From Helicobacter cetorum (GTDB taxonomy: Bacteria > Campylobacterota > Campylobacteria > Campylobacterales > UBA6016), in contig DZAX01000007.1 of the NCBI GenBank assembly GCA_022729705.1, positions 1-64,000 of the forward strand: 64,000 bases of DNA, in the 5' to 3' direction. Below the pieces are notes generated by a model, which did not search any database, was not told the origin of the DNA, and saw nothing but the letters and a program-made list of their open reading frames with translations. Shown one piece after another: positions 6,691 to 33,618 of the stretch. The translations under genes and the position numbers were made by a program. Positions within the stretch are counted from its first letter, which is position 1. Each line of letters starts with the position of its first letter.

Positions 6691-6765
6691 TCCGGATTAG
6701 CTCAGCGGTAGAGTAGGTGACTGTTAATCACTTGGTCGCAGGTTCGAATCCTGCATCCGGAGCCA
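6691..6765 (+). tRNA. tRNA-Asn (GTT)
   Basis: The acceptor stem TCCGGAT pairs with ATCCGGA, followed by G and an encoded CCA. The anticodon loop ctGTTaa reads Asn, and the T-loop GTTCGAATC is normal. Confidence 0.97.
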
Positions 6766-6785
6766 CGAAAAAAATGGAGCAATAT

Positions 6786-6860
6786 GCGGGAGTAGCTCAG
6801 TGGTAGAGCACGACCTTGCCAAGGTCGGGGCCGCGGGTTCGACCCCCGTCTCCCGCTCCA
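6786..6860 (+). tRNA. tRNA-Gly (GCC)
   Basis: The acceptor GCGGGAG pairs with CTCCCGC, with discriminator T and CCA encoded. The anticodon loop ttGCCaa reads Gly. It sits 20 bases after tRNA-Asn. Confidence 0.97.
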
Positions 6861-6880
6861 CTCGTTTCGAATGTAGTAAT

Positions 6881-6967
6881 GCGAGTGTGGTGGAATAGGT
6901 AGACACAAGAGACTTAAAATCTCTCGGACTTTTGTCCGTGCCGGTTCAATTCCGGCCATTCGCACCA
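6881..6967 (+). tRNA. tRNA-Leu (TAA)
   Basis: This is a class II tRNA of 87 bases with a long variable arm (cggacttttgtccg). The acceptor GCGAGTG pairs with CATTCGC through one G-T wobble, the anticodon is TAA, and CCA is encoded. Confidence 0.97.
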
Positions 6968-7011
6968 CAGCGTTTGATAATTTCAGCTTCTTATACTTTT
7001 TATAATATGTC

Positions 7012-7085
7012 GGCGATATAGCCAAGTGGTAAGGCAGGAGCCTGCAAAGCTCCCATCCCCGGTTCAAATCCGGGTGTCGCCTCCA
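7012..7085 (+). tRNA. tRNA-Cys (GCA)
   Basis: The acceptor GGCGATA pairs with TGTCGCC. The anticodon loop ctGCAaa reads Cys, and CCA is encoded. Confidence 0.97.
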
Positions 7086-7104
7086 TTTTTTTTATTTATA
7101 CTAC

Positions 7105-7195
7105 GGAGAGATGGCAGAGCGGTTGAATGCAACGGTCTTGAAAACCGTCGAGGGTGATGAGCCCTTCGGGAGTTCGAATCTCCCTCTCTCCGCCA
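7105..7195 (+). tRNA. tRNA-Ser (TGA)
   Basis: This is a class II tRNA of 91 bases with a long variable arm. The acceptor GGAGAGA pairs with TCTCTCC, the anticodon loop ctTGAaa reads Ser, and CCA is encoded. Confidence 0.97.
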
Positions 7196-29563: not shown

Positions 29564-29639
29564 TGGTGGCTCGAGGCAGAATCGAACTGCCGACACGCAG
29601 ATTTTCAGTCTACTGCTCTACCGACTGAGCTATCGAGCC
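29564..29639 (-). tRNA. tRNA-Phe (GAA)
   Basis: On the minus strand the acceptor GGCTCGA pairs with TCGAGCC, followed by A and CCA. The anticodon loop ctGAAaa reads Phe. It stands alone between rarA and murD. Confidence 0.97.
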
Positions 29640-29689: not shown

Positions 29690-30889
29690 TTAAACTTTAC
29701 TTAAAGCTAGTACAAATTCTTTAAATTTTTCTCCGCGCTCTTTGTAGCCGCTGAATTGGTCAAGGCTTGCGGCGGCTGGTGAGAGCATTCCGACGCTGTT
29801 TATGTCCATTTTGGCGGACATTTTGGCGACCGCCGTTTGAAGTACGCCGCACTTTTCGCACGCTATAGCGTATTTGGCACACAACTCAAAAACTCTGTCT
29901 TGATTGGAACCGATAGCAAACACCTCAATACCTTTGCCTGACAAAAATTCAAATAGAGGCGTAAGCTCTTGTCCTTTATCGTCCCCACCCAAAATCAGCG
30001 CCACTCTTTTGTCTTCGTAGTTTTTGACCGCCTCTATCGTAGCGTCTAGGTTTGTAGCTTTGCTGTCATCCACCCACAATCTGCCAAAAGCGTCTCTAAA
30101 CTCCTCTTGTCTGTGACCGTCGATATTAAAAGTGTTAATAAGCTCATAATCAACTTCGTTAAATAGCACTTTTGTGACCGATAGAGCCATTAAGGCGTCA
30201 AGCAAAAATACCCCTTTAAACTTTAGCTTTGAGCAATCTATATCAAAATACGCCGCCAAATCCTCAGCGCTCTCATAACCCACAAAAAACCCGTTTGTCG
30301 GGGTCTCTTTGTACTTTGACGGCGCGACTATCATCTCGCCCTCATTCATAGACGCAAAAGGCTTTAACTTTGCCGCTTCATACTCCTCCATGCTTTTGTG
30401 CCAGCTCACATGATCGGGTGTTATCGGCAAAAGTAGATAGATATTTGGCTTTGCTTTTGTTGTGTAGTGCATCGTAAACGAACTGGTTTCCAGTATCCAC
30501 ATATTTGCATTTTCGTCCATTTGGGCGAGCGGAGAGCCTATGTTGCCCCCGACATCCGCGCCGCGCTTTTTGAGTAGATGATAAAGCATTTGCGTAGTCG
30601 TCGTCTTGCCGTTTGTGCCGCTAATCCATACGCTAAAAGGCATCGTATCAGCAAATAGGTCGTATTCGCTTATCAGGTGTTTTGCCGCTTTTGTAAGCGG
30701 GTGATGCGGCGGTATGCCGGGACTTGTTACTTCCAGCTTACTTGCGTCTGGGTCAAATAGATGAGAGGGGAAAATAGTGTTGCCTTTTTCATCCTCTTTT
30801 ATCTCTTTTGTGTTGTCGTCAAATATTTTGCAACCGCCAAATCTGTCCGCTATCGCTTTTGTTGTTTTTCCGTATCCGAGTAGGGTCAT
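29690..30889 (-). CDS. murD: UDP-N-acetylmuramoyl-L-alanine:D-glutamate ligase
   Basis: A 399-residue Mur ligase that adds D-glutamate to the peptidoglycan precursor. The ATP loop WISGTNGKTTTTQML is near residue 90, and the central and C-terminal ligase domains are complete (DGHRQEEFRDAFGRLWVDDS). It is the last gene of an mraY operon. Its ATG overlaps the 173-aa gene upstream by four bases, so its translation is coupled to an inserted accessory gene. Confidence 0.94.
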   Translation of the reverse strand: MTLLGYGKTTKAIADRFGGCKIFDDNTKEIKEDEKGNTIFPSHLFDPDASKLEVTSPGIPPHHPLTKAAKHLISEYDLFADTMPFSVWISGTNGKTTTTQMLYHLLKKRGADVGGNIGSPLAQMDENANMWILETSSFTMHYTTKAKPNIYLLLPITPDHVSWHKSMEEYEAAKLKPFASMNEGEMIVAPSKYKETPTNGFFVGYESAEDLAAYFDIDCSKLKFKGVFLLDALMALSVTKVLFNEVDYELINTFNIDGHRQEEFRDAFGRLWVDDSKATNLDATIEAVKNYEDKRVALILGGDDKGQELTPLFEFLSGKGIEVFAIGSNQDRVFELCAKYAIACEKCGVLQTAVAKMSAKMDINSVGMLSPAAASLDQFSGYKERGEKFKEFVLALSKV

Positions 30890-31407
30890 AGAAACTTACT
30901 TTCATAAAAATTTTTACATTCAAGAACAAGTATTTTTTCAAACATAAATTTATACCTCTGCATATTATTAGAAATGTGTTGATGTATCTTATCTCTCGAG
31001 TTTCTAACTTTATATACAAGTATAAAAATTTGCCGCCCTGAACGATAAGCATCACAACTCAAACCGAATTTATTTAAAAAGATACTTAGCAAATGAACAG
31101 AATCTGCCATTTTTAAAAATATACTATATTGTCTTTCTTTTTTATTGAACCACGCTAAAGGGTCGTTAACTTTTGTTAAGTCTTTAAACTCAACAAAAAT
31201 CCATTTATTGCAGTTGGCGCTTATAAGCAACATATCCGCTGATTTTAATGTGCTTATGCCAAATTGTCTGCAAAAAATATCTTTAACTTTGTCGAAATTT
31301 ATATACTGCCGACCATTGTCTGGACAGCATCTATCGCTAACTATATCTAAATTGTCAAATACATTTGGCAAAGTAGTAATATTTGTATTAATGGAGGCTA
31401 CTACCAT
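30886..31407 (-). CDS. putative PD-(D/E)XK-like partner of the adjacent ATPase
   Basis: A 173-residue soluble protein that I do not recognise as a named family. Asp58 (KSADMLLIS) followed 15 residues later by Glu73-Phe-Lys75 (KWIFVEFKD), on two predicted beta strands, fits the D...ExK core of PD-(D/E)XK nucleases. Cys27-Cys28, Cys46 and Cys66 are also present. It overlaps the ATPase stop by seven bases and murD by four. Base composition is visibly more AT-rich than in murD and mraY. It is probably the effector of a two-gene module; the nuclease call is an inference from one motif. Confidence 0.6.
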   Translation of the reverse strand: MVVASINTNITTLPNVFDNLDIVSDRCCPDNGRQYINFDKVKDIFCRQFGISTLKSADMLLISANCNKWIFVEFKDLTKVNDPLAWFNKKERQYSIFLKMADSVHLLSIFLNKFGLSCDAYRSGRQIFILVYKVRNSRDKIHQHISNNMQRYKFMFEKILVLECKNFYESKFL

Positions 31408-32420
31408 TCAATACTATCTATCTGCGTTTTTTCTATCGTATCAAATGGATCGGCTAGTTTTTTAAATATCGGCTCCAAATCATGCGTAACATCTTTTATT
31501 GTAGACATTAAGTCATATTCTGCTTTTTCGGCTAAATAAAAATTTGTTTTATCGCTGATTCCTTCTTTGTCACTATAGACCTTCAAGGCTTCAATCATAT
31601 AAGGGCTATGTGAATTGACTATTACAAAAATGCCGTGTTTTGCCAATGCAATAATAAGTTCCGCATATTTTAACTGCCAAGCTGGATGTAAATGTACTTC
31701 AGGCTCATCCAAAATTAAAACAGAATTCTCTTTGAACGAACCATTAGATATTAGTATTTGCAACAACCCAAACATTTTAACTCCGCTAGCTGCGCATATC
31801 ATCGGGATTTTGATATCAGGATTAGAATGCTTCACAAATACAAAATCATTGCTTTTTATGTCAAAAAATAAACTACCATCTATGGTATTACCGATTTTGT
31901 CTACCAAGTCTTTCATAGGGATGTTTAATTCATCGTCATCAGAGCCTAAATCCTCACGAAATAGTCTAAAAATTAAGTCATATATGTAAAATGGCAATAT
32001 TGTTTCGTAGCCTTCAGAGCTTCGCAAAGATTCAGACTCTAAAATATACCTTCCCAAAGATAGTGTTAAAGGTGCTTCAATATAAAAAATAACATCAGAT
32101 AAGCGTTCATTTATTGTGGCTTTTCGTCTTTTTGTATTGCTGATACTATAGGAAATAATTGCATTGTCATCGTTGTCAAATAGTGACATGTTACCGTTTA
32201 TTTTGCCAAAGGTTAAAAATTTATCGTTTGTTGTTCTAAAAACTTTTTTAAATAGTTTTCCATCGGCGTCTTCTTCTTTGCTAGCCCTATATTTTAAAAA
32301 ATATAGGGCTTTTCCAACCGTACTTTTCCCCGTATCATTCTCCCCTGCAATAACCGTAAGACCATCCAGCTTTACGTCTGCGTTCTCTAGCATACCGATA
32401 TTTTCTAGCTTTATTTTCAC
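31401..32420 (-). CDS. ABC/AAA-type ATPase of a two-gene accessory module
   Basis: A 339-residue ATPase of the SMC/ABC-like group common in phage defence (AAA_15/AAA_21 kind). Walker A is GENDTGKST (26-34), an ABC signature-like SGVKMFGLLQI lies before Walker B, Walker B is LILDEPEVHLHP (Asp238, Glu239), and the switch His271 is in NSHSPYM. Only about 190 residues lie between the Walker motifs, so there is no long coiled coil, and no TOPRIM domain follows, unlike OLD nucleases. It lies 10 bases after mraY. High AT content suggests transfer. Confidence 0.78.
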   Translation of the reverse strand: MKIKLENIGMLENADVKLDGLTVIAGENDTGKSTVGKALYFLKYRASKEEDADGKLFKKVFRTTNDKFLTFGKINGNMSLFDNDDNAIISYSISNTKRRKATINERLSDVIFYIEAPLTLSLGRYILESESLRSSEGYETILPFYIYDLIFRLFREDLGSDDDELNIPMKDLVDKIGNTIDGSLFFDIKSNDFVFVKHSNPDIKIPMICAASGVKMFGLLQILISNGSFKENSVLILDEPEVHLHPAWQLKYAELIIALAKHGIFVIVNSHSPYMIEALKVYSDKEGISDKTNFYLAEKAEYDLMSTIKDVTHDLEPIFKKLADPFDTIEKTQIDSIEW

Positions 32421-32430
32421 AAAAGCTCTT

Positions 32431-33495
32431 TTATCTAATTTTTATAGTAAGCAAAGCAATAATATTAGAAAGTAAAGCGATTATCCAAAAACGCACGATT
32501 ATCTTATTCTCCGCCCATTTTTTCATCTCAAAGTGGTGATGTAGCGGCGCCATCAAAAATACTCTTTTTCCGCGCGATTTGAAAGAGGCTATTTGGATGA
32601 TGACCGACATTGTCTCTAGCACAAAGATAAACCCGATGACAATAAGAAGTATTTCGCTTTTTGAGACGATGGCGATAAGACCGAGAAGGGCGCCTATTGG
32701 TAAGCTTCCGCTATCGCCCATGAATACTTCCGCCGGATTTGAGTTGTACCACAAAAATCCTAGCAGGGCGCCGGTCATTGAGAATGCGACTACGGAAAGC
32801 TCCCCTACGCCGATAATCTTTGGCATAAACAAATAGCCGCTCAAAATAGCATTTCCGGTGATGTATACGAGTATGCCAAGGGAAATAAAAGCAAACACGC
32901 TAGGCACGGTGGCTAAACCATCTAGACCGTCCGTAATATTTACGGCGTTGCTGGCGGCTACAATTACGAGAGCCCAAAAAGGAATAGCAAAAATACCCAT
33001 ATCAAAAAGTTGGTTTTTGACAAAAGGAACATAAAAAGAGCTTGGAAAATCCAAATAAAAAAAGATAAACGCAGAGATGATAAACGCTACAGAAAACTGA
33101 CCATATAGCTTGCCTCTAGCGGACAATCCTAAGTCGTTTTTAGCACTTGCTATTTTGCCCAAATCATCCGTTAGACCTATCGCCATAAACCCGAGCATTA
33201 GCAGTGCCGATGAAATCACATACATATCGTCCATTTTGGCGGATAAGATCACCGCTAGCAGAGTTGCGGACATAAAGACTATGCCGCCCATAGTGGGGGT
33301 GTTCTTTTTGCCCTGATGCGTCTCGGGCGCTAAAGCGTATATGGGTTGTTTCATTTTTTTTGATTTTGCCCAGCGTATAAAGCTTGGCATCATGGCGATT
33401 GTGAGTAAAAACGCCACAAAAAAACCTATCAAAGCCCGAACTGTAATATAGTGAAAAATATTTACGCCGTAGTAGCTATAGAGCCAATAAAACAT
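32431..33495 (-). CDS. mraY: phospho-N-acetylmuramoyl-pentapeptide transferase
   Basis: A 354-residue membrane enzyme with about ten spans that makes lipid I, the first membrane step of peptidoglycan synthesis. Conserved blocks include TPTMGGIVF, NAVNITDGLDGLA and GDSGSLPIGALLG, and the C-terminal APLHHHFE. The ATG at 33495 with an AGAGGGAT ribosome site is preferred over an upstream TTG. It faces away from gpmI. The gap to the ATPase is 10 bases, so mraY, the two inserted genes and murD form one transcript. Confidence 0.94.
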   Translation of the reverse strand: MFYWLYSYYGVNIFHYITVRALIGFFVAFLLTIAMMPSFIRWAKSKKMKQPIYALAPETHQGKKNTPTMGGIVFMSATLLAVILSAKMDDMYVISSALLMLGFMAIGLTDDLGKIASAKNDLGLSARGKLYGQFSVAFIISAFIFFYLDFPSSFYVPFVKNQLFDMGIFAIPFWALVIVAASNAVNITDGLDGLATVPSVFAFISLGILVYITGNAILSGYLFMPKIIGVGELSVVAFSMTGALLGFLWYNSNPAEVFMGDSGSLPIGALLGLIAIVSKSEILLIVIGFIFVLETMSVIIQIASFKSRGKRVFLMAPLHHHFEMKKWAENKIIVRFWIIALLSNIIALLTIKIR

Positions 33496-33618
33496 TGAGC
33501 TTATCCCTCTTGTTATAAAAGCCAAATTTTAGTAAACTTTACCTAAATATGTCCGAACTTTAGTGGGGCTTGTTTTGGCTATGCCAGTCGCTTAAAGCGA
33601 ATAAAAAAGGTTTTTAAG

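Follow-up and report, generated by a model that had tools for sequence, protein, structure and literature searches.

An ATPase–nuclease gene pair between mraY and murD in Helicobacter cetorum: a candidate WonAB-like phage defense cassette

Why do two small overlapping genes lie between mraY and murD, where both congeners that we examined have nothing? We addressed this question in a 64,000-nucleotide stretch of Helicobacter cetorum DNA (assembly GCA_022729705.1, contig DZAX01000007.1, positions 1 to 64,000; the window), in which mraY, gene A, gene B, and murD follow one another on the minus strand. Our preferred answer, at a probability of about 0.6, is that A and B are an abortive-infection phage defense pair like WonAB of Vibrio cholerae, set precisely between mraY and murD: A, an ABC ATPase, would detect infection and then allow B, a predicted PD-(D/E)xK nuclease, to act. 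We favor this answer because the ATPase motifs of A and the candidate catalytic residues of B are invariant, the model of B looks like a nuclease, and the PADLOC models closest to A are all defense ATPases. It is also favored because the genes are adjacent, sporadic, low in G+C content, absent from both congeners, and able to exchange partners, while the same parts are proven in WonAB. The pair is likely defensive and not a cell wall device. It belongs to a known general kind, an OLD-ABC ATPase with a nuclease, within which it stands out for the slots that it occupies next to essential genes and for the exchange of its partners.

The two genes and their products

The features of the locus are as follows, all on the minus strand, with the support for each in parentheses.

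32431..33525, minus strand: mraY, upstream flank (NCBIfam TIGR00445, E 2e-115; 90% and 87% identical in congeners G001 and G002)
31401..32420, minus strand: gene A, OLD/Rad50-like ABC ATPase, 339 amino acids (aa) (Pfam AAA_15 and AAA_21 above cut-off; PADLOC HEC-02A 2.3e-30 and PD-T4-4_A 1.2e-29; model predicted local distance difference test [pLDDT] 85.1)
32319..32345, minus strand: Walker A of A, GENDTGKST, residues 26-34 (G26, N28, G31, and K32 invariant in 35 aligned relatives)
31704..31709, minus strand: Walker B of A, D238-E239 (invariant in the 35 relatives)
31608..31610, minus strand: H271 of A, switch His (nearly invariant in the 35 relatives)
31413..31475, minus strand: C-terminal helix 316-336 of A, putative docking surface for B by analogy with WonAB (helix in the model; I318 and L322 invariant)
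31401..31407, minus strand: A/B overlap, 7 bases (sequence)
30886..31407, minus strand: gene B, predicted PD-(D/E)xK nuclease, 173 aa (37-protein alignment; model pLDDT 88.4, predicted template modeling score [pTM] 0.87; structural neighbors)
31234..31236, minus strand: D58 of B, predicted catalytic (invariant in 37/37; precedes strand 59-63 in the model)
31183..31191, minus strand: E73-F74-K75 of B, predicted catalytic (E73 and K75 invariant in 37/37; strand 68-76 in the model)
31111..31113, minus strand: K99 of B (invariant in 37/37; helix 90-113 in the model)
30886..30889, minus strand: overlap of B stop and murD start, 4 bases, ATGA (sequence)
29690..30889, minus strand: murD, downstream flank (NCBIfam TIGR01087, E 5e-96)

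These features bear out the parts list of the original prediction, which had been made from the sequence alone. The lengths of both proteins and the coordinates of the Walker motifs and H271 hold, none of the 37 aligned B proteins departs from D58, E73, or K75 (nor from D39 or K99), and the two overlaps and the position between mraY and murD are confirmed by the sequence and NCBIfam. A starts with GTG and B with ATG, and 10 bases separate the mraY stop from A. The DNA is more AT rich, as had been noted: the G+C content is 33.7% in A, 29.5% in B, and 32.2% in A and B together, versus 45.0% in murD, 41.8% in mraY, and 42.3% in the window, and no other 1,535-base stretch sampled across the window is as low. 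No methylase or specificity gene adjoins the pair in the window, and no mobile-element genes are visible at the site.

Gene A encodes an OLD/Rad50-like ABC ATPase without a TOPRIM domain. It resembles Rad50/SMC heads, and the PADLOC models closest to it are all defense ATPases, with HEC-02A and PD-T4-4_A scoring within 3 bits of each other. Family searches gave no TOPRIM match in A or B, and A is only 339 aa long. In the model of B, which is a confident one, neighboring strands of the alpha/beta core bring together D58 and E73/K75 in PD-(D/E)xK order. We therefore predict from the invariant residues and the modeled fold that B is a PD-(D/E)xK nuclease, in agreement with the earlier expectation that the effector would be of neither the HNH nor the TOPRIM kind; B had no HNH family match. 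FokI, BstEII, and Nt.BspD6I are among its structural neighbors. Foldseek returned no match to B under E 1e-3; the structural comparison covers the families in the structural lists. Single-sequence searches with B confirmed no relative in the genome, viral, plasmid, and phage collections and found only four proteins, B itself included, in a large protein set, where a profile of the 37 B proteins gave 262 matches, 120 of them listed. A Shewanella relative of B (P0088) had no match among phages and plasmids. One match, at L005 (G042), looks like chance, because it sits opposite a coiled-coil-like gene.

Distribution, sites, and movement of the pair

Is the pair found elsewhere, and does it keep the same neighbors? 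In the survey of the order, A was present in 33 of 398 genomes at E 1e-30, and the other 365 had no match; with five candidates scored in each genome, the number of copies is an underestimate. Two surveys yielded 126 A rows, or 105 distinct relatives after removal of duplicates, both starting from A, so that a B without A would escape. A frame of at least 60 aa lies downstream of A in 94 of the 105, and in 88 it carries the D…E-x-K motif; the remaining 17 include contig ends and broken B genes. Where the motif is present, A and B overlap or are separated by at most 1 base in 81/88, the commonest overlaps being 8 bases (39 cases) and 7 bases (12 cases). Because this adjacency and these overlaps go beyond chance, we read A–B from its sequence as a two-component unit. 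Relatives outside Campylobacterota account for 32/105 (Bacillota, Bacteroidota, Pseudomonadota, Aquificota, and others). Relatives of A are few among plasmids and phages, with two plasmid records and one phage record at E 1e-15, and a long match to A occurs in 2 of 23 viral contigs. In the viral contig L193:5001-6888 (identical in L194), the gene after a full-length A relative is B-like, encodes 191 aa, and has apparently lost the D…E-x-K motif; a transposase-like gene lies upstream. The records L119 and L143 carry the titles Helicobacter pylori PMSS1 and Helicobacter cetorum, but they are metagenome-derived contigs, and these species labels are possibly unreliable.

The sites of the 105 are purE/grx/glyQ (40), after mraY (5), guaA (3), and elsewhere (57, including nuoC–nuoD, rho–murI, and before lepA), with flanks named by eye save those identified by NCBIfam. 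These fractions are not population rates, because the surveys pick the best matches to the A of the window. The suggestion that the effector could be tied to cell wall supply finds no support in this comparison: the commonest neighbor is glyQ, a tRNA ligase subunit gene, and the others include guaA, nuoD, lepA, and murI as well as mraY/murD. We found no link of A–B to cell wall synthesis, and on this evidence murD is an address, not a function. Of 33 complete B genes that precede glyQ, 29 extend into its start codon region; before murD, two of four overlap and two of four lie within 50 bases. The distance from B to the following gene on the same strand is at most 10 bases in 40/54 cases in Campylobacterota and in 4/15 elsewhere. 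Because 25/43 ordinary neighbors in the window are equally close, closeness by itself is at most weakly special; what deserves note is that the same few slots recur. At glyQ, A–B is absent from the window genome. In its genus, the purE–glyQ slot (L244, L235, and L238 in G000, G001, and G002) holds a HAD-hydrolase-like gene, named by eye.

How did the pair come to lie between mraY and murD? It is absent from both congeners, G001 and G002, in which the mraY stop and the murD start have one base in common, so the pair is not a fixture of this site. Because mraY runs straight into murD there, the sequences are most simply explained by an insertion in the window lineage, one that leaves mraY and murD intact and keeps the tight stop–start coupling. 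Among the 30 mraY loci examined, murD is within the stretch seen in 22, A–B is present in 3 (the window, G006, and G025), and 5 have neither. Two loci counted in the 22, G014 (L044:2575-3516) and G017 (L047:2568-3470), have another gene, of 300-313 aa, between mraY and murD. The five modules after mraY (window, G006, G025, G286, and MS502-29; B lengths of 173, 177, 183, 215, and 185 aa) are followed by murD in four cases. A quick tree splits them, with four changes: the A of the window pairs with that of G006 (support 96; the two modules are 44% identical in A and 39% in B), and the other three fall elsewhere. Yet an approximately unbiased (AU) test does not reject a single mraY-site clade (p 0.066), and the window A and L121 form long branches. 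Thus, repeated insertion at mraY–murD is likely but not proven.

The pair also moves on an evolutionary scale. A quick tree of 94 A proteins shows 18 changes of site label, compared with a possible minimum of 3 and a mean of 36 after shuffling. Between L158 and L150, the A proteins are 77% identical and the B proteins (216 and 178 aa) lack significant similarity, while L140 and L129 are 92% identical in B and 50% in A; by these comparisons, ATPases and nucleases exchange partners. The two mostly change together, because their identities correlate across 80 complete pairs (r 0.65, 3,160 comparisons). Three consecutive ATPase–partner pairs stand between purE/grx and glyQ in L147 and L132. The first pair in L147:4518-9384 and L132:2757-7523 is of a divergent type, with the P-loop GKP(S/G)TGKS and a partner of 179-181 aa that has V-E-E-K and no PADLOC match.

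These observations led us to a tentative proposal, which we rate as possible but somewhat against the odds. Campylobacterota may keep exchangeable immune cassettes in fixed slots within essential operons, chiefly purE/grx–glyQ, with mraY–murD and rsmG–guaA in addition. The nuclease stop, often fused to the start of the essential gene, would make breakage of the cassette costly to translation of that gene and so shield the cassette from loss. Recombination in the conserved flanks would swap whole pairs or a single partner and could leave as many as three consecutive pairs, with no need for mobile-element machinery. The trace expected from this is a nuclease truncated in frame with its junctions kept, as found in two relatives. 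What remains of B in L088 is 46 residues at the start and 26 at the end, and in L104 about 10 at the start and 50 at the end; both are cut in frame to 68-70 codons and have lost the catalytic core, yet still join A on one side and glyQ or murI on the other as before. The two cases are consistent with selection acting on the junction, although they fall short of proof. In L081, B is split in two.

Among other genes of the window, tRNA-Phe (29564-29639) lies downstream of murD on the same strand, and five tRNA genes (Asn, Gly, Leu, Cys, and Ser) stand in a row at 6691-7195.

How the pair might act

WonAB is an OLD-type ABC ATPase with a PD-(D/E)xK nuclease, encoded in the V. cholerae WASA-1 prophage. 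According to its report (PMC12137116), both genes are needed, active-site mutants of either fail, and the nuclease is toxic only alongside an active ATPase; translation comes to a halt, with phage DNA replication continuing and chromosomal DNA spared. Because A–B has the same parts, we infer the same plan, in which A senses, B executes, and growth stops. By this analogy, A would dimerize on ATP and hold B through its C-terminal part, and a phage cue would cause A to unleash B. B would most likely cut RNA needed for translation, so that growth stops before phage assembly. The core-operon slot may provide steady, translation-coupled expression. The original call of a defense or abortive-infection module is supported in part, by the low G+C content, the sporadic distribution, and an ATPase closest to phage defense models; defense itself is argued mainly by analogy with WonAB. 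None of the three outcomes named beforehand as refuting that call came about: B has a nuclease-like fold by prediction, other genomes carry the pair, and some relatives lack it at this site.

Could the pair work in another way? PD-(D/E)xK nucleases are typically DNases. With FokI, BstEII, and Nt.BspD6I among the structural neighbors of B and the resemblance of A to Rad50/SMC heads, which act on DNA, this raises the possibility that A loads B on invading DNA, which B degrades directly with no growth arrest. We consider such restriction-like defense rather doubtful, since WonAB, which is built alike, leaves both the replication of phage DNA and the chromosome unharmed (PMC12137116), and since the pair in the window has no adjoining methylase or specificity gene. 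It is unlikely that the pair is a toxin-antitoxin-like addiction module, retained because B is harmful to the cell and is held in check by A. In favor of such a module are two small overlapping genes, their spread with no mobile-element genes visible around them in the window, and the loss of B while A stays in L088, L104, and L081. However, the WonAB nuclease is harmless without its ATPase (PMC12137116), so this ATPase acts as an activator rather than as a simple antitoxin, and our surveys, starting from A, would have missed any B without A. A housekeeping role in cell wall synthesis or in Rad50-Mre11-like DNA repair seems to us very improbable. The Rad50-like head and the modules after mraY, four of five of them followed by murD, are what speak for it; against these stand 365 genomes of the order without a match, the 40 relatives at purE/grx/glyQ, and the low G+C content. 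We rejected a cell wall gene set in particular, as the site is empty in both congeners and other sites are commoner.

If A–B is a WonAB-like defense pair, its position matters. Searches for defense genes usually look to islands, prophages, and plasmids and would overlook a pair sitting singly in a core operon. Related pairs adjoin essential genes in many related bacteria. The family supplies natural pairs, with a similar ATPase and a different nuclease or the reverse, for probing ATPase sensing and nuclease targets. It also makes testable the question of whether overlap with an essential gene guards a defense gene from loss. Our literature search, to which most subscription papers and preprints were beyond reach, found among the papers listed none on the pair at glyQ or mraY–murD.

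Comparison with known systems

The Septu (PtuAB) effector, PtuB, is an HNH protein; B has no HNH family match and a PD-(D/E)xK-like model, so we do not place the pair in Septu. PARIS (AriAB) and Gabija have TOPRIM effectors, according to a 2026 survey (PMC12839542). Neither A nor B has a TOPRIM domain, fused or as a partner, so that OLD, PARIS, and Gabija do not accommodate the pair either.

HEC-02, a Hma-embedded candidate in PADLOC, comes closer. HEC-02A is the profile closest to A, profile-profile comparison of A with the HEC-02A of G051/G043/G052 gives E 6e-27, and the small HEC-02 partner has an E-x-K that hhalign aligns with E73-x-K75 of B. However, the true pairs in these three genomes are separate genes with ATPases 27-28% identical to A. 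The HEC-02B models gave no match to the window B up to E 10; one of them, PDLC04221, has no match in the window genome (G000) and matches 3/37 B relatives, at best 1.9e-4. We therefore rejected membership, as the ATPase fits HEC-02 and B fails HEC-02B. The true HEC-02 pairs at L246:486-3026 (G051) and L247:158-3013 (G043) match the HEC-02B model at E 3.7e-46 and 1.2e-44 and lie between surface-polysaccharide-type genes, named by eye. Both show the habit of A–B: the ATPase gene runs into that of its partner, which in turn shares a few bases with the gene that follows. PD-T4-4 has a similar operon plan (PMC12137116), and its PD-T4-4_A model matches A at 1.2e-29; we found no PD-T4-4_B match for B, the presence of that model in the searched library being unconfirmed.

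The closest proven system is WonAB, by its parts and layout. Its report assigns WonAB to "OLD-ABC ATPase + Novel REase" operons, citing Krishnan et al. 2020, and regards it as a member of a larger uncharacterized family of ABC-ATPase sensors with nucleases (PMC12137116); the 2026 survey describes, for BREX and related loci, OLD-ABC ATPases whose partners are nucleases of the PD-(D/E)xK, HNH, and PIN kinds (PMC12839542). The window pair has the WonAB-type features: Walker A, Walker B, switch His, no TOPRIM, and an adjacent small D…E-x-K gene with a nuclease fold by prediction. The likeness thus lies in a two-gene plan, an OLD-type ABC ATPase without TOPRIM, a small PD-(D/E)xK-type nuclease, and sporadic occurrence in several phyla. 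The two differ in the position of the nuclease lysine, K71 in WonB and K75 in B, and in place: WonAB is in a prophage, whereas the window pair and many of its relatives lie inside core operons.
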